Shown here: piece by piece, positions 1,244 through 55,708 of the stretch
Layout of the letters: every line of letters starts with the position of its first letter
Numbering within the stretch: the first letter of the stretch is position 1
NCBI GenBank assembly: GCA_026874595.1
Contig: CM049317.1
Coordinates: 67,670,118-67,734,117 of the forward strand
Source of the DNA: Sipunculus nudus
Taxonomy: Eukaryota > Annelida > Sipuncula > Golfingiida > Sipunculidae
Direction: 5' to 3'
DNA length: 64,000 bases
Position numbers and translations under genes: made by a program
Notes under the pieces: model-generated
What the model saw: the letters and a program-made list of their open reading frames with translations, nothing else
Databases searched by the model: none
Told to the model about the DNA's origin: nothing

Positions 1244-2308
1244 CTAGTGCCACCAGAGGAACAAAGTGCACGGTACAAGGTTACCGGTTTCGTCACAGCA
1301 GAGGTTCCACTCAATATTGTTGCCGGTTTCGTCACTGCAGATCTGGAGGTTCCAGTCCATATTCTTACAGGTGCTCTTTTTATTATGTGTCACGGGCGTA
1401 ACTCCTGTTGTGGCACTCGTGTCTGGCCGCGTATTACATTCTCTGTTTAATCCGTACTTGTTGAACTCTCGTTGTCGTGCTGGCTAGTGGTTTTCACGCC
1501 TGGTCGTGGGTCTCATGATGACCCTGGTGTGTGAGGATACACACGGCTACGTTCTTCTCGATAATTCCTGAAATGCGTTTTTAATGTGTAGGATCCTTAA
1601 GACTGTTCGAGGAGTGGAAAATTCTCGGCTTGAGGTGTGAAGGTATATAAAGGGGTTGTGTTTTAAAAGAGCAGAGAGCAGAGAAGATTTCAGCGGACGC
1701 AGAAGCGTGAGTCAGATTGTTGGACCTTATCCGACTAATGCGGCAATTATAGATTGTCAAAGACTTTCTCCTGGATTTTATGCATTTGGACTACAGTTTA
1801 CTTTCTGGATGTTGCAAGAACTTTCCACTGGACTGTCATTGTCCGAGAGTATACATTTAGGGAACTTATCGTGGTGAGGGTGTTGGTATCCAGGTACTGT
1901 GCACATTATGTTCTATGTGATTGTATTGACTTGTTGCTGTACCGCTGTTTTACTGTATAATTGTATTGATTTAGTGTATTGTAATGTTAGGGTTGTTTTA
2001 AGAATGAATTATAGTTATTTGTTAACAAAAAAACACTGACTTCTTTATTCATTCCCCTAGACATTTCACGCTGCCTAGTGTTACAGAATCTGATTTTTTT
2101 TTATCTCCATTACAGAATTTGTGTTCATCACGCATACGTGATCTGTTTATATTAGGTTCAACAATATTGACGTATTTCCAGAACACCCTGATTTGGCGGC
2201 TCGGGCCTCTAATCTCGTATTCTGCAGTGAACACGTACATCCCGGGCAAGTAAAAACTTCAAATATCCTGTTACACTAGGTTTGACCTCATGTTGTCGGG
2301 GGATCGCT
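1244..2308 (-). pseudogene. Scr-A exon 3, interrupted by a solo LTR
   Basis: The 5' part (2308..2164) and 3' part (1362..1244) together match exon 3 of the intact copies: SDPP, then EYEIRGPS, then WNLCCDETGN and a final VPC before the stop. The two parts are separated by the LTR at 1363..2163. The 3' part contains an imprecise in-frame repeat (WNLQICSDETGN then WNLCCDETGN, unit about 45 nt) that is absent from the intact genes. Confidence 0.8.
1363..2163 (+). mobile_element. Solo LTR, copy 1 (inserted in Scr-A exon 3)
   Basis: This 801-bp block matches 42425..43232 closely over its whole length. It has LTR architecture: a TATA box (TATATAAA, 1644..1651), a downstream stretch with a mutated poly(A) signal (AATGAA where copy 2 has AATAAA), and degenerate TGTTAC/GTAACA-type ends (TCTTAC at the start, CAACA at the end). 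The flanks carry ATAT on both sides (1359..1362 and 2164..2167), a 4-bp target duplication. No internal gag-pol region is present, so it is a solo LTR, probably of a Gypsy-type element; the superfamily is inference. Confidence 0.75.
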
Positions 2309-2370
2309 CTGAAACATAAAGAATGATTAGGGACATAGCTAGAATTATAAAATTTTACACCGCGCCGTGC

Positions 2371-2930: not shown

Positions 2931-3120
2931 ACCTGGAAAGGTAGCAGTGAAGTTTTGGTCGGCATTGAAAGCGGTCCTGTCGTCTCGGCACTGTTTGCGA
3001 CAGGCTTCGAAATCCGTCTCATCGCACCCCGGGGCCCTGTGCTCCCCTTAATCCTCAAGTTTATTGTAGAGGAACTCGTGTTCGATGTCGTAGATATCAA
3101 GAAATATTGCACAGTCACAG
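2931..3120 (-). pseudogene. Scr-A exon 2 with premature stop
   Basis: The reading starts CDCAIFLDIYDIEHEF and continues after an in-frame TAA with GCDETDFEACRKQC, aligning position for position with Scr-B and Scr-C. The 190-nt length is one codon shorter than the 193 nt of the other two. The end is placed by analogy at the phase 0 boundary after FPG; the following GTAGTG is a weak donor. Confidence 0.8.
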
Positions 3121-6154: not shown

Positions 6155-6209
6155 ATGTGGTCCTGAGCCGTAGCAACATACACAGGAGCAAAAATGGGCA
6201 ATGTTTCAT
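6155..6209 (-). pseudogene. Scr-A exon 1, frameshifted signal-peptide exon
   Basis: The sequence opens MKHCPFLLLCM in one frame, while VATAQDH, which matches the intact copies, is in another. A single missing base explains both the frame switch and the 55-nt length. The donor GTCAGT follows in the same phase 2 position as in the intact genes. Confidence 0.7.
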
Positions 6210-7191: not shown

Positions 7192-7401
7192 CTAGTGTTC
7201 ACACGGTTCGTGTACGCCATCAGAGTCGCAGCATACTTCCCAGGATATACCGACGGTGTCCCACACAACCCCGGGCGGACACGAGGGGCCTCTGATCTCA
7301 TACTCCGCCCTGATGACGTAATGGTACTCCGGGAGATAGTCACGAGCTCCATCCAAGATCCTCTCACAAAATGTCTCACCGTACGTAGCGGGAGGGTCAC
7401 T
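7192..7401 (-). CDS. Scr-B exon 3
   Basis: This 210-nt exon begins SDPPATYGETFC and ends EPCEH-stop. It includes EYEIRGPSC, which Scr-A also retains, and the CCDSDG pair. It ends 11 codons earlier than the Scr-C counterpart. Confidence 0.85.
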   Translation of the reverse strand, partial: SDPPATYGETFCERILDGARDYLPEYHYVIRAEYEIRGPSCPPGVVWDTVGISWEVCCDSDGVHEPCEH

Positions 7402-8905
7402 CTGTAAGGAGAAAGGTCAGAGGTCATGCAGAGTGCGCAGAATCGGATTCACAAGGATGAGACTCTATTGGTTAGTTAGCTGGCTTTGGGATGGCTACGG
7501 CCCATAATGCACCTGGGCTTCTACATACACAGATGGCGTAGGTAAAATTTCATGACGACTATAAAGTATAGTTCGTTCAGTTACGTTGGATAAAAAAATT
7601 GATTTAAGGAATATTACATAAACATGGGTGTTTTGTGGTAAGAATTTCACGGAATAAGTAATATTTTGATAGCATGCGCATGTGAAATGTTAAAGCGAAG
7701 GAGATCTGGAAAGACTGCAGCACATAACCGCTGCTTGGGGAGTGTAAACTTGGAGCATTTATTTTTAATGACTTTAAGGCAGTAGACCCACCTTATTAAA
7801 TTAACAATGAATCTTATTCAATCTTTAATCTAAACTTAAGATAATTTAGGAAGATAAAGTATATGTTTATATAAGAAATATATGGTATATGTATAAATGA
7901 ATTGCTTTCATTATTTAATTGAAAATCAATAAAAAATGTTTAAATGTCTAAAAATTGACCAGTTTTAAGACTCCTGTTAAAGCGGTAAATTTTATTGGAT
8001 ACACATTAAACTAAGTGATAATATGCCCACGCTTTTTCGTTAGCTCATCCTTTTTAATAAAATAATTGATAATGATTGAATACTTATATTTAAACCATTT
8101 TATAAAAAATATATTCTTATATGCACAAGTTGACTCAAGAGTTCAGAGATATCATGCGATATAGATTGGATTTGTTTTTCATTCCTAAGAAAAATCAGTG
8201 AAAAGGAAGCGAGTGTCATGACCGAACTGAAAGGCATAATGTCCATATTTACCCTTGGATATATGGCAGACAAGTTTTGGTAGATCACATCAATGGCGAA
8301 GGCCTCAGCCTGACAGCGGGTCAGGCAGCCAGCTAGCTCTGTCTCGTCACAGCCGGACGTGTCATGTGTTCCCAGATTTTCAAACTTCATCATGAAGTAG
8401 TCATTCTTCAAGTCAAAGGTATCCAAGAAGATAGCACAGTCACACCTGGAAAAGTTTGTATAAAGAAAATACATTTTTTTAACTCACAAATTACGCCGGT
8501 GGCAGTGATAAATGTTTATGTCACCTTATTGAGCCCGGGAACCTAGTCAGGGCGTCATCAGTACGTAAGGTATTCACATAACAAGTGTACATATAACCTT
8601 TTTCTTATAATCTTCGACTTATTACATATAAAAAATTAACTTTTAATAAGGGCGTGGATACCTGAAACACGACACCAGTATCCAAGCTCAAGAAGAGATG
8701 TCATTCTTTCTTGTGTCATATTTGTTCTCTGAATATAAGTTGAGGGAAAGCTTTGTGAATAAGAAACCCAAAGTAAACCCCCAATCATATTCAATTGCCA
8801 TATCTAAGTGTATTCTATTCACTATAAAAAAATAGGATAACAGGTTGAACTCTTAAAAGTTGTTAGAGTGGAGCCAGTGGGGAACCGTTAGAGGTTGCAG
8901 GTAGA

Positions 8906-8978
<73 letters not shown>

Positions 8979-9299
8979 CAATGGTTAGGCAAAGGAAGGA
9001 TACAGGATCTTAGATAATATAAGGAGGGTTTAACAGCCTGGCACAGATAAAGTACTGTGAAAAAAGAACAGGCACTGTTTATCTGTTAAAAGAGCAGAAT
9101 ATTGTGTTTCCGGGATTTTGATTGTCAAATAAAAGAGACGGGCGTACCTCATGACCCTTCAAATCCTGCCCTGCGTACATCATAGCACTTTTTTTATATT
9201 CAGTTCAAATCATTAAAAAGATTGTGGTTTCTCTGACACTCACGTGTGATCCTGAGCAGTAGCGATGGAAACTAGCCAAAGAATAAGCAGACTCTTCAT
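7192..9299 (-). CDS. Scr-B: secreted cysteine-rich protein (152 aa, 3 exons)
   Basis: Exons 9299..9244, 8445..8253 and 7401..7192 join through canonical sites: donor GTGAGT phase 2, acceptor tttccag, donor GTAAAT phase 0, acceptor ttacag. Residues 1-15 (MKSLLILWLVSIATA) form a signal peptide, so the product should be secreted at about 137 aa. Ten cysteines are shared with Scr-C: CxC (20, 22), C-x7-C-x3-C (51, 59, 63), then 95, 124, a CC pair (140, 141) and 150. That pattern fits a disulfide-stabilised extracellular domain. There are no membrane segments or low-complexity parts. I do not recognise the family and assign no function. It runs divergently from Scr-C, 1.29 kb away. The start is the only ATG before the signal sequence. 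Confidence 0.8.
8253..8445 (-). CDS. Scr-B exon 2
   Basis: This 193-nt exon encodes TCDCAIFLDTFDLK through NLSAIYPR and carries five of the ten cysteines. It has the same length and phases (2 to 0) as exon 2 of Scr-C. Confidence 0.85.
8910..8975. repeat. (AT)n microsatellite
   Basis: About 32 AT units within intron 1 of Scr-B. Confidence 0.95.
9244..9299 (-). CDS. Scr-B exon 1 (signal peptide)
   Basis: It encodes MKSLLILWLVSIATAQDH plus two bases (AC) of the next codon. The following GTGAGT is a strong donor. Its 56-nt length serves as the reference for the 55-nt broken exon of Scr-A. Confidence 0.8.
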
Positions 9300-10588
9300 G
9301 CCTTCCAGATAAATTAGTCTTAATATACCATCACATAAACAAACGCCTCAGGTCTAGAGATATAGACATTCATGATAACAACTTAAAAATAGCAACCCGC
9401 ACATTGATCAAGGGTATCTTCACGCGCTCTGGGAACACATGCGGGTTCCCATGTCGGTTTTGGTCTTAGTCAGTAGACTTTAAATAACTGCTGAGCTCAA
9501 TATACTTGTACAAAAAAATAATGTCGTCTGGGTATTGCCTACTTAACAATACTAGCTGTATACCCTTAATTTCGACATGTGACATCCACTTTTTTAGCCT
9601 GTACGCAAAATGGCAGCTCCTAGTTTCGAAATTGTGGGCATTGAAATGCAGTCGCAGAGTGAGAGTTCATCTGCAGAGAGAGTCAGGTGGTCAGTAGGCT
9701 AATTTCTTCTAAATAGAAGCCGGAGGAACGGTCTGAGTGTGACCGCGCCCTCAACCATAAATTACTGTAGGATGCACTCTAAGTCCTTAACAATAATTCC
9801 ATCGAATGGCAGAATAGTTGTTACTAGTGTTGAGCGTCTTTTTGGGGAAATACGATTACTTTTGAAATGATGATGAATCATGTTTTTAGTTTTATTTTCC
9901 TACATTGGTGTCAAAGCGACAAATTGCCAATAGAACGACACATACCGAACCCTAAATGTGTACAACAATAGAAATGTGCAATATCTGATATGCAAAAGAA
10001 ATATAAAAATATTATAGATGATAGTAATATTATTGTGGAAAATATGAAGAAGTATTTAAATCTTAATGAAGGAATAACCACAGCAATAAAACTTAACATT
10101 TTATTCTCCTAAAAACGAAGGGCACGTGTCTCTCTGGTCCCTCCCCCCCCCCCCCCCCCCTCTTCGCACCCCCCCCCCCCTCCTATAAACAAATCCCATG
10201 ATAATTAGTATAGAGGTAGTATATACTCTATCAATGTAGATACTAAAAATAAGGGCAATAATACCTGGATACTTGGTGTTATCGTATTTTCTTAGCAGAT
10301 ACTAAAAATAAGGGCAATAATACCTGGATACTTGGTGTTATCGTATTTTCTTAGCAGTTAACCTTTTACTTGTAATAATATTATTAATTTATTACCGACG
10401 AGGTCACATGACCTCATTACACGACCTCTTATCATTTCACATGACCATCTGACGTAGTTCCTCGATCAAGCTCTGTGTTGCTGTGTATAACATAAAATTA
10501 GGACAACACACCAGATAAGACTTGGCACCTGTCGTTTGCTCAGAGCCTGTGGGTTATTTTATCTCCAGTGACCGAAGAGCTGACTGCT
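9300..10588. promoter_or_regulatory. Divergent intergenic region between Scr-B and Scr-C
   Basis: The two genes start 1.29 kb apart and point away from each other, so this interval must hold both promoters, possibly shared. It also contains poly-C runs near 10141..10180 and a perfect 59-bp tandem duplication at 10238..10355. I could not assign core promoter elements with confidence. Confidence 0.4.
10238..10355. repeat. Perfect 59-bp tandem duplication
   Basis: Units 10238..10296 and 10297..10355 look identical base for base, so the duplication is recent. It lies about 235 bp upstream of the Scr-C start codon. Confidence 0.95.
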
Positions 10589-10656
10589 ATGCCGGGTGTC
10601 ATGAGAATCCTCTACTTTCCCCTCCTGTTTGCCCTAGCAACCGCCCAGGACCACAG
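10589..10656 (+). CDS. Scr-C exon 1 (signal peptide)
   Basis: It encodes MPGVMRILYFPLLFALATAQ, then DH, then two bases (AG) of the next codon. The hydrophobic core and the ATAQDH junction match Scr-B. Confidence 0.75.
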
Positions 10657-10813
10657 GTAATTTCAGCATGGACGTTATAGATACCCTGACAAACATGTCT
10701 GGATCAACGTTCACGTTAATGAATATCGGAATTGATTCAACAGGGTTTATGTGAAGTTAATCACAAGACTCAAGAGTTTCTGGTCGCGTAAATAGATGTG
10801 AAAACTGATAATG

Positions 10814-10880
<67 letters not shown>

Positions 10881-13800
10881 TTGGAAATTACGGTAGTATT
10901 CAATTAATCAGCGATGTGTGTTGTTAATATAAATAACCTGTTATTGCACATTAAAATGCCATAGCACCTTTCATATACACTTCTAGATAAAACATCAAAC
11001 CCTTATATATTCTTAATTGTTTGCAAGAAGAACGTGAATAATATTTACTTAATGATTTCATAAGTTAAAATGTTACAATTTCTTTATCCCTTTCCGTGTC
11101 GTCATGGCAACAGGTACTTGAGGCCGAATCGAGTAATACATGTACTTATTTCGAGTGCTGAGTTCTTTGCAACCCATTTTAGAAGTATTATTGATACATC
11201 GTATCAAAGAAGGAAGTGTGATATGATAAGGATACCTTTGGTTAGGCCATGAAATTATTAATAACTTCCAGTACTTTACTTCTAAATCACCTCAGACAGA
11301 ATGATATTATAATATCTTTTTAAATATATTTTTAAATTATATAAAAGCAAACAAGGAGCAACTAGCATGGGACGGAGAAATAAGTCAACTCTTGAATACG
11401 TTGCTTTGAAATGATTTCATCGTTTATTCAAATCACTTAATCTTTTTACAGAAGCGAGATTTATCAGTGACTTTACTTCAAACCTGGATCGACATTTAAA
11501 GTCCATAGGCCCATGATTATTTTTAACTTAATCCGACACACCATGCAATCTATTAATATATTAGACCTAATCCAAAGATTAATAAACTTAGTTTATTAAC
11601 CCGTCCCATTACAGTAAAACTATCAAATAAAACCAAAAACAGAAAACGCTAGTGAATAAAAAGGCCGTAATAATTGCCGCGTAAAACAGCAGTGCAAAGA
11701 TTTGTTATTTATTTTTTTTTGTGAAGGTTACCGCCTCCATTTTTTAATGCTGACTTAACTACGGTCCATTCCGGTTTCGGACTACGTGACAGGGCAGTAT
11801 CACACGCTTCTTCTCATGTTATATCCTTGCATCAACCAGGCCCGGTGACTACTGTACCTGCGGGCCCTGGGTGCGTAATCGTACCAACTGCTAGGTCATA
11901 CCACCGAGGAACACCCGAAAGGCGAATTCGTTCGTGAGTGAAACACGGTCGTGGGACACGACCTATTCGTTAAGCCTGCTGAGCGATCACCCAGGGTGGG
12001 GGTCCTCCGTGAAAAATCTCACCGCCTCGGCTGAGATTCGAACTCACGATCTCCTGGCTTTGAGCCCTGTGCTGTACCCCTGAGCCACAGAAGCCGGCTG
12101 CAAAGATTTATTTTTGTATAGTCGAGACGCATTGTTTGCGTCCTTATGAACGAAATGCGTCATAGTTTTTTTTTTATTATTATTATTGCTTATTATTTTT
12201 ATAACGTGTTCAATCAATTTTGACTTCGCAAGGCTTTTGTAAATAATTCATATAAATAAGGCATGGTTTCATCGTCTTTTCACGACATCTTGTCATAACG
12301 CCTGCGAAGGTCCACATTTTATTTCGTCTTAATATAAGCTACTTAATCCTGGGTCATGCTTTCTTTTCCTAATTTATTTATGTATTAAGTGTACATTTAA
12401 TGGAGTCATATAATGTATTTGCACACATACAATGTGAATACTAAATTAGAACTTCTTTCTTGCAAAAAATCTGCAATAGCCTTGAGAAATTCATTATGTC
12501 GAAATTCCAAAAAATAGTTTTTCAAATTCGACAAATTCTACTCTAAAATATGGATAAAGAGCATCAAAGTTGCAATACTTATACTGCAACGGACATATAT
12601 ATTTGGTTTATAACAGTAAACCACTTCATGCCAGGCAGCTGCGATACTGAATATTGATAACAGTATTACAAAATAACTTATTGATAAAAATATCTATACA
12701 GGAGTGACAATAAACCACCTAAACATATCGTTCTTTGTACTGTGGTAGGCATATGATATTATTCCAAGTGATAACAACCTCTCTGATGTGCAGAGACGGG
12801 GACGGATCATGGACGTTTAGAAAGGAAAGAATCATCTTTAAACCAAGTGAAAATGCCACGCAAAATTTCAGAGAGCGTAGAGAAATTACAGGAAGGGAAG
12901 TTTAGTCTAAAACATTCGGGGAAATCCGGGCAACGAGATGATCCCGGGATCAAAGTAGAATCAAAATGTAAAAAAGGGAACTGTGGTATATATCTTTTGT
13001 ATCTACTTTGAAAGGTAGATGGCGCCACACATGCATGGAATTGCAACAACTCTTATAGCAGGTTTGATGGAGATATTGGCCTCTTACTACAATTTGAAAA
13101 TGTTGGTGTGGTCCCCAAAAAGCGCTATTCCGATCCAAAGTTCTAATGATCTAATGTGATATTTTAGTTAACTCTTTCTGTCTATAGATGTATATTTTGA
13201 TATACTTTCTTAACTCTCTTAATATGCTTTTATGATTTGAGTCCATATGTTCATGTTTATATTTTTAGTCATGGTATTATTTTATGCATTGTATTGATAG
13301 TTTAGTCATTGTATGTTTTATATGTACTGATACAGGGCACCAAGTAAGACCAGTTTAATTTAAACTGATTGGTTTTCCCTGTATAAACATAATGTAAATA
13401 ATAATAATAATAATAAATAATAATAATAAAGTTTGCCGATACATGTCCCCTTGCAACCAGACTCTCTCCACAAAAAGATTTCCGTCCGGACCCTGTCCTT
13501 GGAGTACTTTCCTGTTGCATCACTTAAACCTGACAGTTTATTTCTCCAAGTTTCTCGAAACCGCTCATGGGGCAACCATTTTGTGTACACTCTAAGTTTC
13601 GAATGTCACCGGTCAAAATTATATAAAGTTGTATCAATGCAGCATAATATATTGATTAACTGTTCAAAGTACTTTTTTAAATTCTAGTACAACAGTAAAA
13701 CATCGGAAATTCCGAGCACCAATTGGACCTTAAAGTGATCGTATTTTCGAGATGGTCGTCTGAGCAAGGTTTCATATAAACAGCTAATAAGAATCGGGAC

Positions 13801-16500
13801 CCTGAACAAGTGGTCGTTAATTTTGAGGTTAATCGAAGTTTTACTGTTCATGTACATGTATACCATTTTTGACTGTTTTAACGAAGACCTGACATGGGGT
13901 GGCTAATGTATAATTTCCGTGTCGGGGGTAATGATATATATTACATCTTGATGAATGTGAATATATGTATGTTTGTCAGCGTGTTTAAGCATGCAAATTT
14001 CAGAAAGGTTTATAATAATCTGGGCGTCTGGTGAATATAGAATGAATAACCTACCAGCGACTAATACGATTGCATGGTTTGTATGGTGCCAAGGAAGCCG
14101 AGAAAAGCTACCAGAATGAAGAGCCCGATTGACCAGGAAGGCAAAGTGTAAAGTCAGATGAGACTAACCTCGTTGGTGATATCAGACTATAAACCCCCTT
14201 CTTTACTCTTTTTATGTGTTTATCAATATTGGGATTATTTTTTTTTTTTTTTGCTTCCAGTAATTAAAACATGTAAGGCCCAATAAATAGTATATTTCTC
14301 AGGCACCGCCCGCGTCATTTTAACCTCCCGCATCAAAAATTTTTATTTGATTTTCATCTTTCAAGAAAATAAAATAATACAATTTTGATCAGATTTCCTT
14401 TGTCACGTATTGCTTTTATCTGTTTATAAAAAAATATGTTATTATCATGCATTTCCCTGATCATATGACATTTTTATAGAAACATACAAAAAAAAGTAAA
14501 AAAAAATCGCACACCCTCACTAATTTAAAAAAAAAAAGTGCCTGAGAACCATACCTTTTTTTGACCATATATGTATGTGAACTGACTGATATGATAATTA
14601 TGAATTTAACACATTTGCTTTGACACTCGTTTGAACATATTATCAGAGTTACACTAAAACTGGTTATTTTTATTCTTGAATCCGATTCTTTCATGTAGAT
14701 GCCAATGTGGTCTGCTTTTCGACATTTACGACATTGAAGTCGACTTCTTCAATGCCAAGTTTGAAGATATCGGGTCACATGACGCCACCTCGTGTGGAGA
14801 AGAGGCACTAGCCGTCTGCAAGAGCCAATGCAGATCCGATGCTGAGGCGTTTCATGCCGCTCAACAGACCTTCAACGCTGTTTACCCTGGAGTATGTATA
14901 ACATGCACATGTATTCCGTATACTAGTATACCATAACGGCGCCAGGTGGCAGTGTATTATATTTCCCTGGTTGTGGTGTTACGAAGACAAATTGCTCAGG
15001 GGAAAACGTCCGATCCCGGTTTCGAACCCAGTTCCCAGGCGCACAAATCCGGCGTACCTTTCACTAGCGAGACAGTTCGGTCCGCTTTTATGTCACCCCG
15101 TAACGCATCTCTTAAGAGCGTCCTGCTATCAGAAGAAGACTAATTATCCCAGGAGTCACGCTTTCGCAAGCATATTCCCTGATCCACAAAGTTAACCGTC
15201 ACGTTGGACGAGCCCCAATTTTGTTACGAAGACAAATTGCTCAGGGGAAAACACTGGGCCGAACCGGGATTCGAACCCATGTCGGGGGCGCACACGTCTG
15301 GCGTACCAACCGCTTCGCTAGCAAAGCATGCTTCACTAGCTAGACAGTTCGGTCCGCTTGGTCATATGATTTGTCTGTTACAGACTTTACGCAATAAATT
15401 TTGAAAGGAATTTGTTAATATTTTGAGCGTTAGGGTGACACCACATAGTACTAACCGGATCCCAAAAGATACTTTTTAATTCAAAGGAGTGCGTACCATT
15501 GTTGCACATGGTCCGGGTTAGAGACCACCTATATTCGTTGATATGAGGGGCAATGTTTCATATGTAGCTCACCAGTGTAGCCCGTGTTATTGAAGCGTGA
15601 CATCACTTTGTACCATACAGATATGTTTTATAAGGGAATCCTGATCAGGGTATCCGTGTATGCTACGACTACACACCTGTTTTGGTTATTATCTGATTGT
15701 TCTCATATGTCTTGAATGTTATACAATTTTAAGTCGATATACTTAGCTGCCAATACAAATTGTTTCCTGTGCCTGTTATCAGGACATCTCAATGACATGC
15801 AGGAAAACTTTTGTGTTTACGCTCAATCTGAATAAAACAATGCACCCTACTTCAGTATTATTACATATACTAACAAAACATACAGTCATAAGTTCAAAGC
15901 TTGGTTTGATAATCATTTGTTTATAGTTTGCAATATGTTGTGTTATAATTGATTCGTTTATACGGCCACCCTCCGACATGGCGTTTTTGTTAACATTTCA
16001 ATCTTGGGATGTTTCACTACCTTAATAACTCATGACATTTTCCATATAATATTTGGTGTAATTCAAGTTGAAAAGATATATATTTTTAGGCATATAAAAC
16101 TTACTTTTTATATTATATGTACAATATTTAAAGTTTAAAAAAAAATCAGTACATGTGTGTGAGTGTTTGCACGGCCGTTAGTTATCATCGGCCACATTTA
16201 GAAATAGTCATATATGAGGTATATCATATGTATATATCATTCCATATTTCTCTCTAGAGCGACCCACCCGTCACGTACGGTCAGACTTTCTGCAGCAGGA
16301 TCAAGGCAGCAGGGGCTGACACCTACTGGAGGGGTCCGTACCCCCTGGCGGCCGAGTACAAGATTAGCGGAGAAACTTGTCCAAGGTCGGTGGTATGGAA
16401 CTACGTGGGCATGGATGTGATGTGGAACCTGTGCTGTGACGTCAGCGGGAACCACGTGCCATGTGGCAATAAAAAACGTTCAGATCTTTTGACATATTAG
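10589..16500 (+). CDS. Scr-C: secreted cysteine-rich protein (167 aa, 3 exons)
   Basis: Exons 10589..10656, 14699..14891 and 16258..16500 join with donors GTAATT (phase 2) and GTATGT (phase 0) and acceptors catgtag and tctctag. The signal peptide ends in LATA, followed by QDH as in Scr-B. A second in-frame ATG at codon 5 gives an 18-residue leader of exactly the Scr-B length, so the true start may be 10601. Ten cysteines fall in the same pattern (24, 26, 55, 63, 67, 99, 128, 146, 147, 156). The C-terminus is 11 residues longer (GNKKRSDLLTY). An AATAAA lies inside the last codons (16468..16473) and another at 16621..16626 in the 3' UTR. Secretion is well supported; function is unknown. Confidence 0.8.
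10816..10877. repeat. (AT)n microsatellite
   Basis: About 30 AT units in intron 1 of Scr-C. Confidence 0.95.
11765..12106 (-). mobile_element. tRNA-derived SINE
   Basis: Read on the minus strand, the head (about 12106..12030) has an A box (TGGCTCAGGGGTACAGC) and a canonical B box (GAGTTCGAATCTC) with tRNA spacing. It is followed by about 260 bp of unrelated body. It sits in intron 1 of Scr-C. Intactness and family are unknown. Confidence 0.6.
13430..13650 (+). repeat. Dispersed repeat R2, copy 1
   Basis: It starts AAGTTTGCCGATAC and includes GGAGTACTTTC, TTTATTTCTCC and AAACCGCTCA blocks shared with 38560..38770, 51300..51520, 51640..51745 (inverted) and, more weakly, 52440..52640. No coding capacity is evident. 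Confidence 0.6.
13693..13846. mobile_element. Short MITE, CAGTAAAAC termini
   Basis: It begins CAGTAAAACATCGG and ends in the near reverse complement (CGAAGTTTTACTG). The internal sequence includes TGGTCGT words like the MITE at 19121. Its ends resemble Tc1/mariner-pogo MITEs, although the flanking dinucleotide is not TA. Confidence 0.5.
14699..14891 (+). CDS. Scr-C exon 2
   Basis: This 193-nt exon runs from RCQCGLLFDIYDIE to FNAVYPG. Split codon AG+A restores arginine. Cysteine spacing is identical to Scr-B. Confidence 0.85.
14977..15382 (-). mobile_element. Miniature terminal-repeat retrotransposon, copy 1
   Basis: Direct terminal repeats at 14977..15105 and 15222..about 15382 both begin TGTTACGAAGACAAATTGC. 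They enclose about 116 bp with a GGGGCTCGTCC-type stretch next to one repeat, reminiscent of an LTR-element primer-binding region. It is the reverse-oriented relative of 54362..54765. The right edge is diverged and I see no clear target duplication. Confidence 0.6.
16258..16500 (+). CDS. Scr-C exon 3
   Basis: It opens SDPPVTYGQTFC after a pyrimidine-rich acceptor. It contains YKISGETC and WNLCCDVSGNHVPCG, then a lysine-rich tail and a TAG stop. Confidence 0.85.
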   Translation, partial: SDPPVTYGQTFCSRIKAAGADTYWRGPYPLAAEYKISGETCPRSVVWNYVGMDVMWNLCCDVSGNHVPCGNKKRSDLLTY

Positions 16501-19466: not shown

Positions 19467-20515
19467 TCAGGGCGCTCCATGAGTTACCCCGCCAAGCGTG
19501 TAGCTGAACACAAACTGTCCTTTATCAGGTTCTTGTGAAGTGTAGCAACAATCATCGCCAAGTCTTGGCCAGAGGACCCCGGACTGTCTGGCGTGACGCA
19601 GAGCGTCCATGGTCTTGAAGAGCTCCTTCCGTTTGGCGGGCATGTTTTCCAGAACGCCCACCTCTGCTTCCTGTGCGATGACCTTGATCTCATTAGCGAC
19701 GTTCGCAGCCATTGAATGGGCTTCTGTTTGCCTTTGCAGCGCTGCGTTTACGGCCTGATAGTAATATTGGTCTCTTTGGTCTAACGACTTTTCCACCGCC
19801 TCCTGTAGATACTCAATGTATTGTTTCAGTTTCTCTTTCGTTTCTTGCCGCTTCTTTGCAACTTCTAGTTCTGACTGTCTTTTCGTGTAATTCATAATTT
19901 TGTTCAGTTCGTTCATTTCTTGGAATAACACACGTTTTCCATCTGTAATCATAGAAGAAGTTTTGTCTTTCACTTCTTTGATTTCACAAACCTCGTGGCC
20001 GGAGTGGAGATCGGAAATAGACTGACATTCGTAGCATAGTCCGATATGGCACGTGACGCACGCATGCGTGTACTCCCTCACGTGAATCTCGCACAAATCC
20101 TCGGCAATCACGTGCTCGGCGAAATCCGGCTGCTCTTTGTGAAGCTTCACGCACGCTTTGCACAACGTAACTTCACATTTTCCACAACGGGCTGACGCGG
20201 TTTGTCTTACACCTTTATTCCGACAGAGGGCGCAGATGCTGGTGCCTTCACACGCCTTCAAAGCTTCTTCTGTGATTGACACATGGCAATCAAGTGGAAG
20301 TCCAAGAATTCCGTTTTCATCTAGTGGGGTCACTTTCCAGCATATTGGACACTGGATATGTTCGTCTGTTAGTAAAGATCCGGTGCCTGATAAACATTCG
20401 GTGCAGAAGCCATGTTTACAAATCAGCTGTCGTGGGTTCCGACCGCTTCTCTTCTGCGAGCAGATCAAGCAGTCCACCAGCAAATTGATTGATGCTTTAG
20501 CGGTAGGCCGAAATT
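19467..20515 (-). CDS. TRIM-like gene exon 2 (RING, B-boxes, coiled coil)
   Basis: A single large exon carries all recognisable domains and the stop codon after GGVTHGAP. It opens EFRPTAKASINLLVDC in the frame set by exon 1. Confidence 0.85.
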
Positions 20516-27551: not shown

Positions 27552-28304
27552 ATGTGTCGGGTTGAAATTAAAACAAAAACAGGCCCAGTCTTAATCGCAA
27601 GTTATTACCGCCCTCCGGGCCAAACTCGTGATATAAGAGAGGCATTCCTAACCGCCTTAGAATCGTCGATTGATACAGCTTTAAAATGTAAACCTGCAGC
27701 CGTTATAATTACCGGGGACTTTAATGATAGATGTACTGATTGGGAGACTAATCACAGGGAAAGCGAATTGGGTCTACAACTTTACGATTTACTGTTAAGA
27801 CTTGGTTTAACACAACTAATAAAAAGACCGACAAGATGTAACGAGTACACTAATTCATTATTGGATTTATTGATAACTGACAACCCTGACGCGTTCTCCG
27901 ATATCCGCGTTTTACCACCCATTTCTAATTGTGACCACTGTCCTGTAACTGGACGGCTCGGTTTTGCACCTGTCTTAAGGAGGTCGCACAGTCGAAACAT
28001 ATGGGATTTTAAGAATGGTGATCATCCTGGCCTTAACGAAGCTTTATGTCGTGAACGTTGGGATTTCATAGATACAGAACCAACAGACGTTAACTCTTTA
28101 GCTACACTGTGGATAAACACGTTTTTGTCTATTGCGGCTCGTTTTATTCCCAGGCGAAAAGTGACTGTTCGACCAAGTGATAAGCCATGGATCACATGTG
28201 AATTAAAACGATTAATACGCAAACGAAATAGATTATGGAGGCGCTATAGAAAAACGTCGAATGAGGTCCACTTCCAGGTTTACAAAAAGTACGTAATGAA
28301 GTAG
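27552..28304 (+). pseudogene. LINE ORF2 part 2: C-terminal endonuclease
   Basis: It continues the endonuclease in a second frame: LIASYYRPPG, the catalytic GDFN, and SNCDHCPV with the Asp-His pair. It then enters the linker to the RT (KPWITCELKRLIRKRN). It ends at a stop near 28304, where the sequence switches to the third frame. Confidence 0.85.
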
Positions 28305-28336
28305 TCCGCTTAAATCGTAAATCATATTCTGATTAT

Positions 28337-30523
28337 ATGGAGAGTCTTAACGAACGGCTAGAAAGTTCTGACAGTAAATCTTTTTGGCAAAATGTGAAAC
28401 ATATAATTGGCAATAAAAGGGAAAGCGTAATTCCTCCTCTTTTACATGATGGCGAATTAGTTACTGATGACCAAGAAAAAGCCGAAATGTTTAACCAGCA
28501 TTTCATCTCACTTTTCGAATCATCTGATTCTTCAAATCACACAAATGACACGAGTTTCACAACACAGTCAACACATAATGGACACCAACGATTATCCAAT
28601 ATTAACATAAACCCTGAGAACGTCCTGAAAATATTAATGGATCTGAATCCAAGTAAGGCCACTGGGCCTGATGATATTGGTAATCATCTGTTGCGCGCAA
28701 CAGCCAAAAATATCTTCATACCTCTCACTAAGATTTTCAACATATCCTTACAGACAGCCACATTCCCGACCCCATGGAAACTGGCAAATATTACTCCAGT
28801 TTATAAAAAAGGGGATAGAAACCAAACCACTAACTATCGACCTATATCTCTGTTGTGTAACGTTTCCAAGGTATTTGAAAGAGCAGTGCATGATGCACTT
28901 TATGCATTCCTAGTAAGTAATAAAATCCTCATAGACAATAACTCTGGATTTAAAAAAGGAGATTCTACTATTAACCAGCTTGTGGCAATAATGGATAAAA
29001 TTTATCGTGGTATTGATACAAAATGTGATGTCAGAATGGTCTTTCTGGACGCCACTGCTGCATTCGACCGAGTGTGGCACGACGGTCTCTCCATTAAATT
29101 ATTTAACTCGGGGATTCAAGGATACATACTTAACTGGCTAATTGATTATGTTAAAAATCGCCACCAACGAGTTGTTCTTAATGGTAAGGCGTCAAGCTGG
29201 CAGTCGACGTCAGCAGGAGTCCCTCAGGGTTCTATTTTAGGTCCACTGCTTTTCCTTATATATGTAAATGATATTAATTCAGGTATTGAATCAGATTTGC
29301 ATCTCTTCGCCGATGATACATGTCTCCTTAATGTTGCTACTAATCCACTCTCCACTGCTCGTATAATACAGCGTGATCTGAATACTCTTGGATGCTGGGC
29401 CCGGAGGTGGCATATAAAATTTAATCCTACCAAAACTGTCGCAATGACTTTCTCTTCTCGTGTAGGTAAAACACATCATCAAACCTTGTACCTGAATGGC
29501 GAACCTTTATCTGAGACTCAAAGCCACAAACACTTGGGAATAACTTTATCATCAGACCTGTCATGGTCCGAACATATTTCTAATATTTGCATTAAAGCCA
29601 ATAAAAAAATAGGACTACTAAGGCGTCTGAAATATAACATGAGGCGACATACACTGGACCACTTATACAAGTCACATGTTCGTTCAGTCCTCGAGTATGG
29701 AAATGTAATATTCGATAATATGAGCATATCAAACTGTAAAAAACTCGAAAATATTCAATACGAGGCTGCTAAGCTGGTCACAGGAGCACTTCCAACGACC
29801 AGTTATGATAAACTTTTATCTGAACTTGGCTGGCCTACATTAGAAAGCAGACGAACAAAATCTAAGCTATGTTTATTCTACAAGTTATATCATGGTCTGT
29901 GTCCAGTGTTCATGTCACGATTAATGTGTGCGTCAGTCTCAGACGTTACACCTCGGAACCTAAGAAACGCTAGTGACTTGCGCCCGCCACGTGAAAGAAC
30001 TGAAAAATACAAATCGTCGTTCATTCCATCTTGCACAGTCCTATGGAATTCATTAGATGCGTCATTAAAAAATGCAGCGTCATTAAATTGTTTTAAATCT
30101 TCTCTAAACAGATACCTTGGCTTAGAGTCAGACCCCCCATTATATTATAGTTATGGAAAAAGAAAGCAGAATATATTAATTTCAAGACTTAGGCTCGGCC
30201 ATAGCTGCCTCCAAGATCATCTATATAGACATGGCCTGTCCGAAATAAATCAATGTCCACACTGTGGAATGGTTGAATCATCTGTTCACTTCTTCTTAAT
30301 GTGTCCATACTACGGAATCGCACGACAACTGCTACTAGAGCAATTACAAAATATAATCCCTGATATAATAACTTCTTTCATTTCAAATCCAGGCAGACAA
30401 CAAACCGATAAATTAATGTCTATCTTGTTACATGGGTCATCAGATTTCAGTATAATAGTCAATCAGTGTATACTTGATCACGTCTACACATACCTTAAAT
30501 CATCAAGACGTTTTTTATGCTAA
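28337..30523 (+). pseudogene. LINE ORF2 part 3: reverse transcriptase and zinc-knuckle-like tail
   Basis: A 728-codon frame with all RT motifs: KKGDRNQTTNYRPISLL, motif A LDATAAFDRVW, motif B AGVPQGSILGPLLF, motif C FADD, motif D NPTKT and motif E LGITL. The C-terminal part has CPHCGMVESSVHFFLMCPY, a C-x2-C-x8-H-x4-C arrangement seen at the end of Jockey/CR1-like ORF2 proteins. The RT itself looks uncorrupted, but its upstream linkage is broken by the frameshift before 28337. Confidence 0.9.
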
Positions 30524-35700: not shown

Positions 35701-38700
35701 GCATGTATTAAGTCTTAACCCCGCACGGATTAGACCAATCTAAAGGCACGCCTCTCTTGTCCAACTACAACGTATGCTGTATTTCATTACACTTTTATCA
35801 TGGCTTTACATGCTCACCAGAGATGCCTGCCAGGTTAAATTTGGTGCAAAATTATTCTTCAACTCAAGCAAGCATGTTGAATTTCTGCTTCCTTGTGATG
35901 TTTTTTTAATCAGAACATTTATATATTTATAGTGAAAAGATGATGTTTGCTTCTATCGTAAAATAGTTAGTACTATACATCATACTGTTAATTCAGTTAA
36001 ACACAATACATGGGCAGATCCAGGATTTAGGAAGGGGGGGGCAACGAATGAGGATTATGATAAAACCTAAAAAAGTCCTCCGATCTGGGAAAAGGGGGGG
36101 GGGGGTCCAGGCCGCAAAATTGGTCAAACGCACTTGAAAAGGTTGTTTCGGCTGAAAAAGGGAGGTCCGGACCCCTAGACCCCCCCCCCCCCCCCCCCCG
36201 CACCTGCAGAACATGATGAGTGTGAAGTCAAATCAAGGTTTCCTTTGATCCTGCACAATGTCACACTTCAGTAACGCGGGCTTACTTGGCATTACCAAAT
36301 ATACCCCTTATAACTGTGAATGAATCGATCTCCCTGTAATTAAAGATATCGCCCTGTGTTACAATGCTGTATAACTCTTGGAATTAAATATGTTATGGAG
36401 ATCTGGATTGCCTGCAAACTTTAACAGATTGTTCATTGGGTGTTCCTAAATCTCCTTTCAACAAATTTCATTCATTTCCTGACGAATGTATAATAACCAT
36501 GTATTTGTTGAATGAACCATGAATGTATTTATTTCAACGTGCAGAGTATGTTTAAATGAGTACGGTGTACTTGGTATCTAGGTATGTCGCAAACATGGCT
36601 TGACTTACCTGGACTATCTAATAAACCTCCATTGGACTCAGTTTGATCAACCTGCTGACCATCCGTTGATGATTTACTCATATCTGTTGGGAGCCAAATT
36701 TGGTCCAGTTCATTATCTCCTGGTTTTCCCTTGACCTTGGGAGTATAACCACGTGATGTAGCGTATTGTGTCTGTACGGTAGCCGGGTTTATGGTTCGCA
36801 GTATTGGTTTTGGTGTTGTAGTCGTTGATATGCCCGGTCGATGTGGACCATGGGCGTACCGTATTGTGGTTGTGGATGGCGGAATGGTAGGGCTAGTGGC
36901 AAAACCCGGTGGTCTTGGCCGACTGGTGGTTGAGATTGTTGAGGGCTTCATCCTAGCAATGCTGGGAGGTCCAGCTGGGGGAGTTGTTCTTGCGATACTT
37001 GGAGGCCCCCTTCTTTCTGATGGTTTTGTTACTATTTCATCTTTGGGTGAAATATGTATTGGCCTTGTGGGGATGAATCTGGCTATGCTAGGGGGTCCTC
37101 CTCTCACGGTTGTCTTTATTGTGTCTGAGGGCTTTAAGGGCCCCTGGGTACGATGTGGCCCTGGTGTTGTCCTGGCAATACTCGGTGGTCGGCCCCTTCT
37201 CTTCGTTGCTGGTGCCGTGTCTCTGGTACTGTATTGAACAGGAGTGGGAAATGATCGTGAAGTTGTCTTGGCAACACTTGGTAGTCGCTCTTCTCCCGTA
37301 TTTCCCCCTGTTTGAGTGGGTGCATTAGGTGTAGAGGAAAATCTTCTGAATGAGCTTGGTGTTGTAAATGTTTTACTGAGTGACTGTTTTGAAGATTCAG
37401 AAGAAAATGATAAAACTGATTCCGTCATCCTATCAGTTGGTTTAGGTTTTGTTCGACTATGTGTGCCTCGGGAAACGGTTGTCATGCCAGGCCTGCCCGT
37501 TTTTAACATTACTTGTGTACTGCCGAAGAAATCAGTAGTCGAGGGAAAAGTTTGACCTGTCCTAGATTTGGGGAAGGTGAGTTTAGTTGTCTTTTGTTGA
37601 ACAGTGGCGGGAGTTGTCTTGGTTCCATAACCGGAAGCGGAAGTCGTACCCATGGGTGTGGTAGGTCTCGCGATATCCGGAAGCCGTGGCCACGTGATAT
37701 TGCGGGGAGTTCGTCTTTGGTCAGGTAAGAAGGTTGGTCTTGGAACATCAGGTGATACACCTCTGTCATAATTCGCTGCATACAAAGAAAGTATTGCACA
37801 TTTCAAATATTTCAGTCGTTTAGCCACGATACGGTAGGGGTTTTCTGTGGTGGTTTAGATAACCTGCCTTCTTAACTTATATTTTAGCGGCCTTTCTCAA
37901 ATGAGTTGCATTAAACCTTTCGCAGAGGAACTGGTTCAACTTTCTTTTTGAGGGATAGGTCTAAGACCTCTCGGAAATTTTCTTATAAATCAAAATGAAT
38001 GTAACCACTAGATTAGTATGATCTGTAATATTATTGAGTCATCTAGCTGGGATTCAGGTTTCACATGCACCGCGCTAGGGATGAACCAGAATTCATAACC
38101 GGTCTTCAGACTGGTATAATTTCTATCTATAGCAGAAATGCGATCATTTAAAATATGAAAAAGGTAGACCTTTCTTTGATCCACCTGATCCACTACAAAT
38201 ATACACATATACGGGTACTCTACATTAATAGACAGACTCCATTCTCAGAAGCGATCTAGATCTTAGAAAAGATAATGCATCTGATACCCAAAGCTAAAAA
38301 CCTGAAATGTGGTAGTTTGCTCACATTGACAGATGACGCTCATGGTGTCATCACATTCCGTCAGACTCCATTGTCCCATTACACTGGATAACGTAGCACA
38401 CATCCCAGGAACCCAGTAACCAGGGTATCTGTTCTTCCAGTTAGTGAACGTTATCGGCTTCTCTATAATAATACATTTACGAATACAGACACTGATGTGG
38501 TCTAAAGGGCAGTTTTTACTGTAGTTTTAGGATTTTTTTAATGGTAAAAATAAGTATTATTCCGCTCCACATCCCCTTGTGACCAGTCTCTCTCCCCAGA
38601 TAGATCCTTGCCTCGACGCCGTCTTCAGAGTACTTTCGTGTTTTTCCCTTTATCGAACCCTGACAGGAGTATTTCTCCCAGTTTCTCAAAACCGCTCAGG

Positions 38701-41464: not shown

Positions 41465-44400
41465 TACCTTTTTAGCGACTGTATGACACATTTCAAATAT
41501 AATTACTCAATCACATTTCAGATATATTACAATTAAGAATAAGGTTTTAGAAAATAAGGTAATGTGTTTCCAGTATATGTTTATTCCAGGTTTAGATATA
41601 ATATTTCATATAGTAAACTCATAAAAAGGAACCAAAGTCTATAATACTATTTATTACTATATTTCATTTGAGATATATAAATACTGTTCTCTGAATAGTG
41701 TGAGGGGCGATGATTACATTGACCATCCCCCCTTGTCAAATAGTGGGGGGGGGGGGGGGAGGGGGAGGGATTTACACCACTATTCCACAATATTTACGCC
41801 CCTGAAAACAAACTCCTCTTTCCTCTGCATGCAATTCTGTGCATATTACATATTTAAGCACAAACACAAACAGAGAGAATAAAATATTATTTATTGTGCC
41901 GTGCATTAAATTAACAAAACATTTCCAACAAAGACTGCTTGTTTTAGCTGATGACAAGCTTGTGGCAGGAGCGTTTAGGAAGGTTTCAATAGACCCTGAG
42001 GACATTTTCTAGTCTAAGATAACCAAGAACATAAATACTTAAACATGGTTCACTGTTGACCTCAGAGAACGGTTCTGAGACAAGCCTATGCCCCAGATGT
42101 GAAGAAAGGGCGCGTAAACTCACTGTTAAAAGGGCCTATTCCGATGTTTCACTTCTATAAACTAAAGATAATCCGTTAAACCTCATATAAAATGGCCGAG
42201 TCAAAGTTGATCTAACCGAACACATCCTGTTTAACCTTTCGTTGATTTCCACGTGTTTATAACATGTGAGGAGCCCGAAAATATGCAAACACATTCAACA
42301 AGGATATCTAGCTGCAAGTCAGCCATACTAAAGTTTTGCAAATGGCTTATTGCAACCAGTGGCCTTCCAGCTTTCCCACATATGCAATCAATTCCCTTAG
42401 ATTGTTGTATATTTCTGTTTCCAATGTTACAGGTGCTCTTTTTATTATTTGACACGGGCGTAAATCCTGTTGTGGCACTCGTGTCTGGCCGCGTATTACA
42501 TTCTATGGTTAATCCGTACAGGTTGATCTCTCGTTGTCATGTAAGCCTTGGGTTTTCACGCCTGGCCGAGGTCACGTGATGATCCTGATATGTAGAGATA
42601 CACACAGCGCTGTTTTTCTAGAGAATTCCTGAAACGCGTGCTTACTGTGTTGTGTAAGATCTTATGGACTCTTCGAGAAGTGGAAAATTCTCGGCTTGAG
42701 GTGTGAAGGTATATAAAAGGCCGTGTATTAGAGGGGGCAGAGAGCAGAGCAGATCCCAGCGGACGCAGAAGCGAGTGTCAGTTTCTAGGGCCTTATCCGA
42801 CGAATGCGGCAATTATAGATTTTCAAAGACTTTCTCCTGGATTTCATGCATTTGGACTTCAGTTTACTTTCTGGATGTTACAAGAACTTTCCACTGGACT
42901 GTCATTCTCCGAGAGTATACATTTAAAGAACTTATCGTGGTGACGGTGTTGGTATCCAGGTACTGTGCACATTATTTTCTGTGTGATTGTATTGACTTGT
43001 TGCTATACCGCTTTTTTACTATATAATTGTATTGATTTAGTGTATTGTACTGTTAGAATTGTTTTAAGAATAAATTATAGTTATTTGTTAACAAAAAACC
43101 ACTGAATTCTTTATCCATTCCCCTAGACATTTCACGCTGCCTAGTGTTACACAATCTGATTTTTTTTTATCTCCATTACAAAATTTGTGTTCATCACGCA
43201 GACATGATCTGTTTATATTAGGTTCCGTAACACTAACCATTGGCCCCTGTAACGTGTTAAATCACAGCTTGCAGAAAAAAATAAGCTCAAACATCCGGCA
43301 CAGATGCCTGATAAGAAATTGTCTTAGCAGGAGTTACTTATAGTTGTTACCTATGTACGCAGCGAGAGTCAGCGAGAAATCACAAACATTTTACAGATAA
43401 TATAGGTGAATAGCTAGCTTTAACATTTATCCGATCCTTCGAGAATAGAATATTTTCTTTATACATACATCCAGTCAACAATGACAAGTAGTAATTTACT
43501 TGTTTATCCATTCAGAAGAGACTTCACTTTGCTGCGATAACCTTGGCCTGACCCAGAGCAAATGTTAATGGCTCAAAAACATGACTATCTTTCGTTCCCG
43601 TTCACCCAACACAGTTATCACATAATCATGAGCCAGTTATAATAATTATATGTTATGAGTGATGCAATTTGAGATAATTACGTACTTTGCATGATTAATA
43701 CTAAGAATTTTATTAAGATATATAATATATATTATTCGGTTAATTAAATACGCCATGCCTTTCTGCGTATCCTTCTGTCTCTGTATCTGATTTTTTGTCG
43801 TTTGTCGCGGTTTGTTCGTCTGTTCATCTATGTTTATTGTATCTATAAACTAGAAATGTGCGCCAAGAGAGTACAGACCTCCACCGATGCAGCTCATTAT
43901 CCCCATATGGCACTGTGAGAAATGCAACATTTGTTTCCTTTAAATAATTCCTGGATCCGTATAACCCCCAAATTTAATCAATCGTTCCTTTTATAAATGC
44001 CGAGCTATCCTAAATATTTAATCAAAATTCGTTGAGACCCTTTTCGAAGATTGTTTATAAAACAAACAGGCAAACCAACGCCGGCGATAACATTACCCCT
44101 TGGTAAAGGTAATCTAAGATTCCTCCCATCTTAGGTGGGAGAGGACGTAACCCTGTACCCATGGGATTAGCTGAGCTCAAGGGTCCCTAGCTCGACCTGT
44201 TCGAGCGGCTTATGATGAAATAGTATAAACGTGCACTCAGACAGTGCAGGGCTCCGCCAAAGCAGCGTATTACCACAGTATTGCATTGTCAGAAATGTGT
44301 GATAACACAGCAGGACTGAACGTTATAAAATACTGACACTGAGCGCCATAGAGTGGCAACAAAGTTAACAAGGCAGCTCATAAGCACCATATGGCATTGT

Positions 44401-54361: not shown

Positions 54362-54765
54362 TGTTACAGGTCGACTTAAAAGCGGACCGAACTGTGTCGC
54401 CGGACTTGTGCGCCACCGACCTGGGTTCGACTCCCGAATCGGCCTAGGATTTTCCCCTTATTTATTTGTCTTCGTAACAAATTGGGGGCTTGTCCGACGT
54501 GACGATAAAACTTTGTGGCCCAGGGAATAAGCTCAACAAAGTGTGACTCCTGGGGAAAATTAGTCTTGTTCTGATAGCAGAACGCTCTTAAGAGGGGATG
54601 TGTTACGGGGTGACATAAAAGCGGACCGAACTGGCTCACTTGTTAAGCTTGCTTTTCTAGCGAAGCGGTTGGGACGCCGGATTTGTGCGGACTTGTGCGG
54701 ACCGACCTGGGTACGACACCCGGATCGGCCCAGGATTCTCCCCTCATTTATTTGTCTTCGTAACA
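54362..54765 (+). mobile_element. Miniature terminal-repeat retrotransposon, copy 2 (perfect target duplication)
   Basis: 404 bp: direct repeats 54362..54479 (118 bp) and 54601..54765 (165 bp) each start TGTTAC and end CGTAACA. The left copy lacks about 45 bp present in the right. The 121-bp interior begins AATTGGGGGCTTGTCCG, as expected of a primer-binding region next to a left LTR. TAAT flanks both ends (54358..54361, 54766..54769). No coding capacity. It fits a TRIM-class LTR derivative mobilised in trans. Confidence 0.75.
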
Positions 54766-54769
54766 TAAT

Positions 54770-55708
54770 TTTACACTCGTTGCATGTTCTTCATTTGAAA
54801 AACGTGAAATCGCAAATCCAGGAACTGTGTGGTTGTCATCATTGACAAGTTTAGAATCGTTAGCTTCTTAGAAGAATTCGTTGGGTTCTGTTTTAAATAT
54901 TCTTTTTAAATCAGGTAGGCTGTGAAACGGAAGACTGAACAATTTTGTTTGAGATGTGTAACAAACTGAGATTATCTGAAAATGTAATTAACATCTATTT
55001 CGTTTTTATCGATTGCTTTCACACACAAAAAAATTGACTTTGTATACGATTTTATAAAACAGACTTTGAAATTATTTTTACCATTTCTGCTGCAAATATA
55101 TACATACAAGATGCTGTTGGAGATATCAGAACTGGAGTCACATGATGCTGTAATGTGTTCACCGCTGTCACGAATCAAAAATCGTGTTCCAGGTCACCTC
55201 CACAATACAATATTACATTGAAATAGCCGTATATGTTACAATGGCAGTGTATCCTTTGAATTACCAAATATTTATGATGAATAAGATTAGTTTAAAAATT
55301 TAATGGATTTTTCCTTCTCAACAATATTTAAAAAATATGTTTAATATGTTTTGCTTAAACCTGCTGACAGACAAACCGAGGGTAGGACTGTCGTGGGTTT
55401 TTTTCCAGAATGTAGACGGTGTCCTCAATGGAAGTTTGTGAAGGATAGGTGCATTAAGATATTACGGCTTTTCACGGCTTAGCTGTTTAATAATGCTTAG
55501 AAAGCCTCAAAATGTATTTACAAGAACTGTTTAACTTTTATAGGCATTAGAGAACCTGAAATGGTATTGTTCCTTCAGGGGTTCATGGTATGAGTAATTG
55601 TCCTACGGTAACAAGAATAACAAACTGTTCCCTTCTGTAGAGCCAGAGAAGCTGCAATTCTACCAATAACGTCATTTGTATTAGTCACGTTGCTGATAGT
55701 GTATTAGA

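Follow-up and report, generated by a model that had tools for sequence, protein, structure and literature searches.

Many secreted cysteine-rich proteins in animal genomes are orphans of unknown role. TIMP and netrin-like (NTR) proteins are secreted and disulfide-rich with a CxC motif near the mature N terminus, and TIMPs begin with the cysteine itself. CRASP of Achatina achatina, an orphan when published, is according to the excerpted text of its report a secreted protein of isoelectric point (pI) 4.57, with a mature chain of 158 residues and ten cysteines in five disulfides, reported to be all-helical (PMC4596865), and the corresponding excerpt on accripin11, a protein of Pinna nobilis and related pteriomorphs, describes antiparallel helices and a disordered acidic tail (PMC9808598). 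Here we describe a ten-cysteine family of small secreted proteins from Sipunculus nudus, encountered in a window of 64,000 nucleotides (C12:67670118-67734117) that holds two intact genes, here called A and B, and one dead copy, the relic, and extended by eight further members on the same contig, which is of chromosome size. It is almost certainly a real secreted family of its own.

The sequence-only reading of the window had proposed two intact three-exon genes with intron phases 2 and 0, and both models are confirmed: A encodes a product of 152 amino acids and B one of 167, each gene is intact, and all four introns have GT..AG ends and follow the phases 2 and 0 (Table 1). The exon lengths that the two genes were said to share are common to exon 2 but differ in exons 1 and 3. 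The introns measure 798 and 851 bp in A and 4042 and 1366 bp in B. Two repeat-like features lie in the latter, a tRNA-Leu-like sequence in intron 1 (12023-12094; ARAGORN, with 29.5 bits in Rfam), perhaps the head of a short interspersed element (SINE), and, inside intron 2, the first copy of an inverted dispersed repeat pair (14977-15359 and 54363-54770, 70-84% identical). The genes are divergent, with 1.29 kb separating their start codons, and their proteins share 44% identity over 152 residues (BLASTP E 1e-51). The end of the signal peptide, ATA-QDH, is encoded in A and B by six codons with four synonymous differences and no amino-acid difference, and between the two genes the third codon position differs at 61%, the first at 39% and the second at 34% (Fisher p 1.4e-6). 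The introns of A, B and the relic showed no similarity at E 0.01 or better in any of six pairings, whilst the exons still align, so that the exons have been held and the rest lost; likewise, the 500-bp regions upstream of the three copies gave no shared match better than E 0.37.

The genome searched comprises 1.43 Gb in 153 contigs, and all match counts from it are lower bounds. Protein B as query gave at least 16 matches, of which seven lay in the window, seven in a tandem cluster at C12:64.009-64.093 Mb, one at C12:38.869 Mb and one elsewhere that was judged to be chance, and protein A gave at least seven, six of them in the window and one in the tandem cluster. The genes of the cluster, 3.6 Mb from the window, are named T1-T7, and the solitary gene at C12:38.869 Mb, 29 Mb from the window, is named S. 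Reading of the surrounding DNA placed exon 2 next to exon 3 at all eight new loci. T2-T7 are complete, with exons of 71, 175 and 216 nt, phases 2 and 0, introns of 467-550 bp and products of 153 amino acids; together with A and B they bring to eight of the ten the members in which the arrangement of three exons, phases 2 and 0 and a signal in exon 1 is complete. In S, exons 2 and 3 are intact and one exon-1 candidate in phase, found by a custom pattern, lies 9.3 kb upstream. In T1, exons 2 and 3 are intact and exon 1 did not resolve in the family phase. A signal-like exon-1 candidate for T1 stands at G000:C12:64018556, with the closest GT in phase 1 instead of 2, and at the S locus (L038, minus strand) exon 2 is closely preceded by an extended array of imperfect repeats, one frame of which reads CHNGVTRPCVTARCSF.

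The match of protein B on contig 1 (1:45877770, E 4.5e-4), which has four stops and runs antisense to a long open frame, was judged to be chance on account of its stops and of the cysteines that it lacks; the E of 1.4e-8 obtained there by local tblastn on the 3.3-kb locus alone is a small-database value. With the tandem exon 3 as query, at least ten matches comprised the seven T genes, S, B and one chance match (E 2.47), and with the tandem exon 2 at least ten comprised the seven T genes, S and two chance matches (E 2.6 and 6.67), so that neither query gave an additional locus among the matches listed. No member was found in the 30-kb flanks on either side of the window (tblastn, E 0.1).

Kinship was assessed on an alignment of exons 2 and 3 of the ten stop-free sequences (A, B, S and T1-T7). 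All ten cysteines align in 10/10 sequences in the pattern C-x-C, C-x7-C-x3-C, C, C, CC-x8/9-C, with spacings of 1; 22, 23 or 28; 7; 3; 30-31; 28; 15-17; 0; and 8-9. In A these are 1, 28, 7, 3, 31, 28, 15, 0 and 8, and B is identical except for 17 in place of 15. The ten-cysteine pattern noticed in the first reading therefore extends to every member, although its CC-x8-C ending is confined to A and B and the other eight have CC-x9-C. The ATAQDH signal end was likewise seen only in A, B and, as codons, the relic; the other members with an exon 1 found or proposed read SYAQN or ATAQN, the leader ending ATA-Q in A, B and the S candidate and SYA-Q in T2-T7. Outside the cysteines ten residues are invariant in all ten sequences (D, Y, P, T, Y, G, E, G, W and P). 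A and B share 24-31% identity with the other eight members. When their profile was compared with that of S, T1, T4, T6 and T7, the probability was 98.2 (E 4e-14), and when A and B were each paired with T4, S and T1, none of 1000 shuffles with fixed cysteines reached the observed score in each of the six comparisons. A and B are a more diverged branch of the family.

Selection can be read among the tandem copies. T3, T4 and T5 differ by 3-8 synonymous and no amino-acid changes over exons 2 and 3, and the T2-T7 proteins are 94-100% identical, with ratios of nonsynonymous to synonymous substitution rates (dN/dS) of 0-0.38 at low divergence; T1 compared with T2-T7 gave dN/dS values of 0.21-0.25 at a dS of 0.87-1.06. 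T4 DNA together with 3 kb of flank at either end is 75-91% identical to other sites of the cluster (the 19 longest matches listed besides itself, exons included), which together with the near-identical proteins indicates that the protein of the cluster is held while its DNA changes. Purifying selection acts among the close tandem copies. With eight more members, a layout shared wherever it resolved, ten aligned cysteines and low dN/dS in the cluster, the view of these genes as a real, evolving extracellular family is supported.

The relic had been placed within positions 7192-16500 as a copy sharing the ATAQDH signal end; the copy exists and retains these codons, but it spans about 6209-1268, outside that interval, and the codons are out of frame, its signal exon being one nucleotide shorter than that of A. 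A profile of exon 2 built from A and B only scored 33.4 and 28.0 bits on the two fragments of this exon in the relic, whereas 20 shuffled windows gave at most 11.0. The stops, the shift in the signal exon and the repeat that interrupts exon 3 show clearly that this copy is dead.

That the family matches no known domain, as proposed from the sequence alone, holds in Pfam-A, NCBIfam and PDB sequences, where no credible match was found and only weak matches below cut-off occurred. A and B matched no Pfam family at E up to 10, nor did S. A match of T1 to Pectate_lyase (Pfam, E 0.01), below cut-off, was set aside as probable chance. Against PDB chains the best HMMER E-values were 0.45 for the A and B profile, 0.32 for A and 0.13 for B, none of them significant, and a seven-sequence profile gave no match at E up to 10. 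Prokaryote and viral contigs, scanned from two short peptide patterns in each case, gave no relative. Literature searches by family peptide strings found no paper, those by descriptive words did not have the family among the matches listed, and the excerpted text of PMC3374290 holds no match to it. The family is undescribed within the databases and literature searched.

The predicted mature proteins are 133-148 amino acids long in the seven members counted with a leader, and acidic, with a pI of 4.05-4.91, 19-26 Asp and Glu and 1-12 Lys and Arg; for the pI and for sequons, T1, T3 and T5 were counted without N-terminal residues. Nine of the ten members have N-glycosylation sequons, and in A, S and T1-T7 exon 2 closes shortly after one that reads NLS. 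The leader is hydrophobic, and exons 2 and 3 encode five cysteines each. An AlphaFold2 model of exon 2 from two sequences has a helix at residues 34-61, a block with a predicted local distance difference test (pLDDT) score of 74-78, and suggests a long helix across the C-x7-C-x3-C stretch.

From these properties we infer a leader cleaved after ATA or SYA to leave an N-terminal Gln, which would probably cyclise, and ten cysteines forming five disulfides, at least one of which, if all are paired, would link the two exon halves since each holds an odd number. The whole would be one compact fold, comprising an N-terminal CxC segment, the helix with C-x7-C-x3-C and a C-terminal part ending in CC..C, and the protein would serve in an extracellular fluid, in mucus or in a matrix as a stable binding or structural component without enzymatic activity. 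Invariant His, Ser or Lys residues are absent, and just one Asp and one Glu are conserved throughout, which makes an enzyme unlikely; the invariant residues other than cysteine look structural, so that a binding or structural role appears the most likely one. Tandem copies would keep the dose high, and a near-constant protein encoded by diverging DNA fits selection for dose. Taken as a whole, it seems somewhat probable from the sequences that this is an acidic, disulfide-locked secreted family with an extracellular binding or structural role and dose-selected tandem copies; that the role is binding or structural and not enzymatic is, considered separately, evenly balanced. A bolder version is tentative and on the whole doubtful, namely an animal-lineage-restricted family with a new five-disulfide fold, divided into a near-invariant, dosage-amplified tandem branch and a faster-diverging A/B branch with two extracellular roles. 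NH2-X-X-His at a mature N terminus is a copper-binding pattern, which the N-terminal QDH fits; copper binding as the function of the family was ruled out, other members beginning QNV or QNA, although a copper site could be special to A and B.

Several observations weigh against this reading. The genes and proteins are known here from sequence alone, T1 may be damaged or may use another exon 1, and B has no sequon, so glycosylation is not universal. The exon-2 model is modest (mean pLDDT 64.2), that of exon 3, likewise from two sequences, is unusable (mean pLDDT 46.8), and the functional step leans on an absence of catalytic-looking invariant residues, a weak footing. Between A and B, the comparison that the first reading had singled out, dS is 1.8-2.3, near saturation, and A or B against the other eight gave dN/dS values of 0.15-0.87 at a dS of at least 1.07, or infinite values, too saturated to read either way; purifying selection is therefore shown best within the tandem cluster, where the low dN/dS is readable. 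Lastly, T4 matched DUF1131 in Pfam (E 0.0022) and the RpoE-regulated lipoprotein model in NCBIfam (E 0.0084), both below or far below curated cut-offs and, in our judgement, models of the same bacterial family. A, B and S match neither model in either library, nor does T1 in Pfam, where it was searched, and the T4 match was set aside as probable chance.

Secreted cysteine-rich proteins with tandem and dead copies and diverged branches are common in defence families, and it is conceivable, though unlikely, that these genes encode antimicrobial, opsonin-like or protease-inhibiting proteins secreted into mucus or haemolymph, whose duplication was driven by pathogens. Secretion, the richness in cysteine, the tandem copies, the one dead copy and the diverged A/B branch would all suit such a role. 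Most antimicrobial peptides are cationic, however, and these proteins are acidic; T2-T7, at the protein identities given above, are not diversifying, and the Pfam matches include no inhibitor or immune family. Somewhat less probable still is a role as matrix proteins of shell, skeleton or egg coat, acting at a mineral or capsule surface, for which the acidity of the mature proteins speaks, together with the existence of lineage-restricted cysteine proteins in mollusc shells such as accripin11, as far as the excerpted report goes (PMC9808598). The ten sequences nevertheless show no acidic run or repeat, the source animal is not a known shell-maker, and the accripin11 cysteine frame given in that excerpt is unlike the one found here. 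Conotoxin-like venom or salivary peptides, similarly small and secreted with a cysteine framework and tandem copies, are very improbable. In conotoxins the signal is conserved and the mature peptide hypervariable, whereas the mature part of T3, T4 and T5 has no amino-acid change, a single ten-cysteine frame is kept in A, B and the tandem genes, and the roughly 4-5 residues from the predicted cut to the first cysteine exclude a propeptide. That the loci are not genes at all, only chance open frames or pseudogenes, can be dismissed as extremely improbable for the family, even with a clearly dead relic and loci known from their DNA, given the conserved splice sites and phases, three copies that differ at synonymous sites only and the third-position excess between A and B, although A or B individually could be silent.

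Table 1. Positions in the window of the exons of genes A and B, of the remains of the relic and of the repeat that splits its exon 3.
Feature	Position	Strand	Description
Gene A exon 1	9244..9299	-	56 nt; signal peptide MKSLLILWLVSIATA then QDH; donor AC/GTGAGT, phase 2
Gene A exon 2	8253..8445	-	193 nt; CxC and C-x7-C-x3-C half; one N-glycosylation sequon (NLS)
Gene A exon 3	7192..7401	-	210 nt including stop; TYGxxFC ... C ... CC-x8-C half
Gene B exon 1	10589..10656	+	68 nt; signal peptide ending ATA-QDH; donor AG/GTAATT, phase 2
Gene B exon 2	14699..14891	+	193 nt; phase 0 at its end
Gene B exon 3	16258..16500	+	243 nt including stop; C-terminal tail, absent from A
Relic exon 1	6155..6209	-	55 nt; ATAQDH codons retained, out of frame with ATG
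Relic exon 2	2931..3120	-	one codon missing, one in-frame stop
Relic exon 3, first part	2163..2311	-	two stops
Repeat splitting relic exon 3	1365..2159		about 800 bp; 88% identical to 42427-43225
Relic exon 3, last part	1268..1372	-	has CC..C; partly duplicated

Elsewhere in the window, positions 27552-30523 hold a long interspersed element (LINE)-type element that matches endonuclease (Exo_endo_phos_2) and reverse transcriptase (RVT_1) models. On the minus strand, a TRIM-like open frame of 338 amino acids (19467-20483) has RING and B-box matches that are all below cut-off, and a Pro/Thr-rich open frame of 432 amino acids (36529-37827) with repeated GPPSIAR units has no Pfam match at E 0.01.

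On a single contig the gene structure is clear, ten members are free of stops, one copy is dead and selection can be measured, which makes the family a good case for the origin of such families, for their fold and for why one branch keeps near-identical copies. The kind of protein is familiar, whilst the family itself matches nothing searched. The TIMP and NTR proteins are alike in being secreted and in having CxC close to the mature N terminus, and no TIMP or NTR model was among the Pfam matches of A, B, T4, S or T1 at E up to 10. Accripin11, on the excerpted account, resembles the family in being small, secreted and lineage-restricted with an invariant cysteine frame; that frame, C-x3-C-x6-C-x3-C-x12-C-x3-C-x6-C-x3-C, has eight cysteines and differs from the one here (PMC9808598). 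CRASP, as excerpted, has a cysteine spacing of 4, 30, 9, 6, 28, 11, 11, 8 and 10, without CxC and without CC, unlike the spacing in this family, but both are secreted and acidic with ten cysteines, the disulfides of the present proteins being predicted ones, and among the proteins compared CRASP is the nearest in kind.

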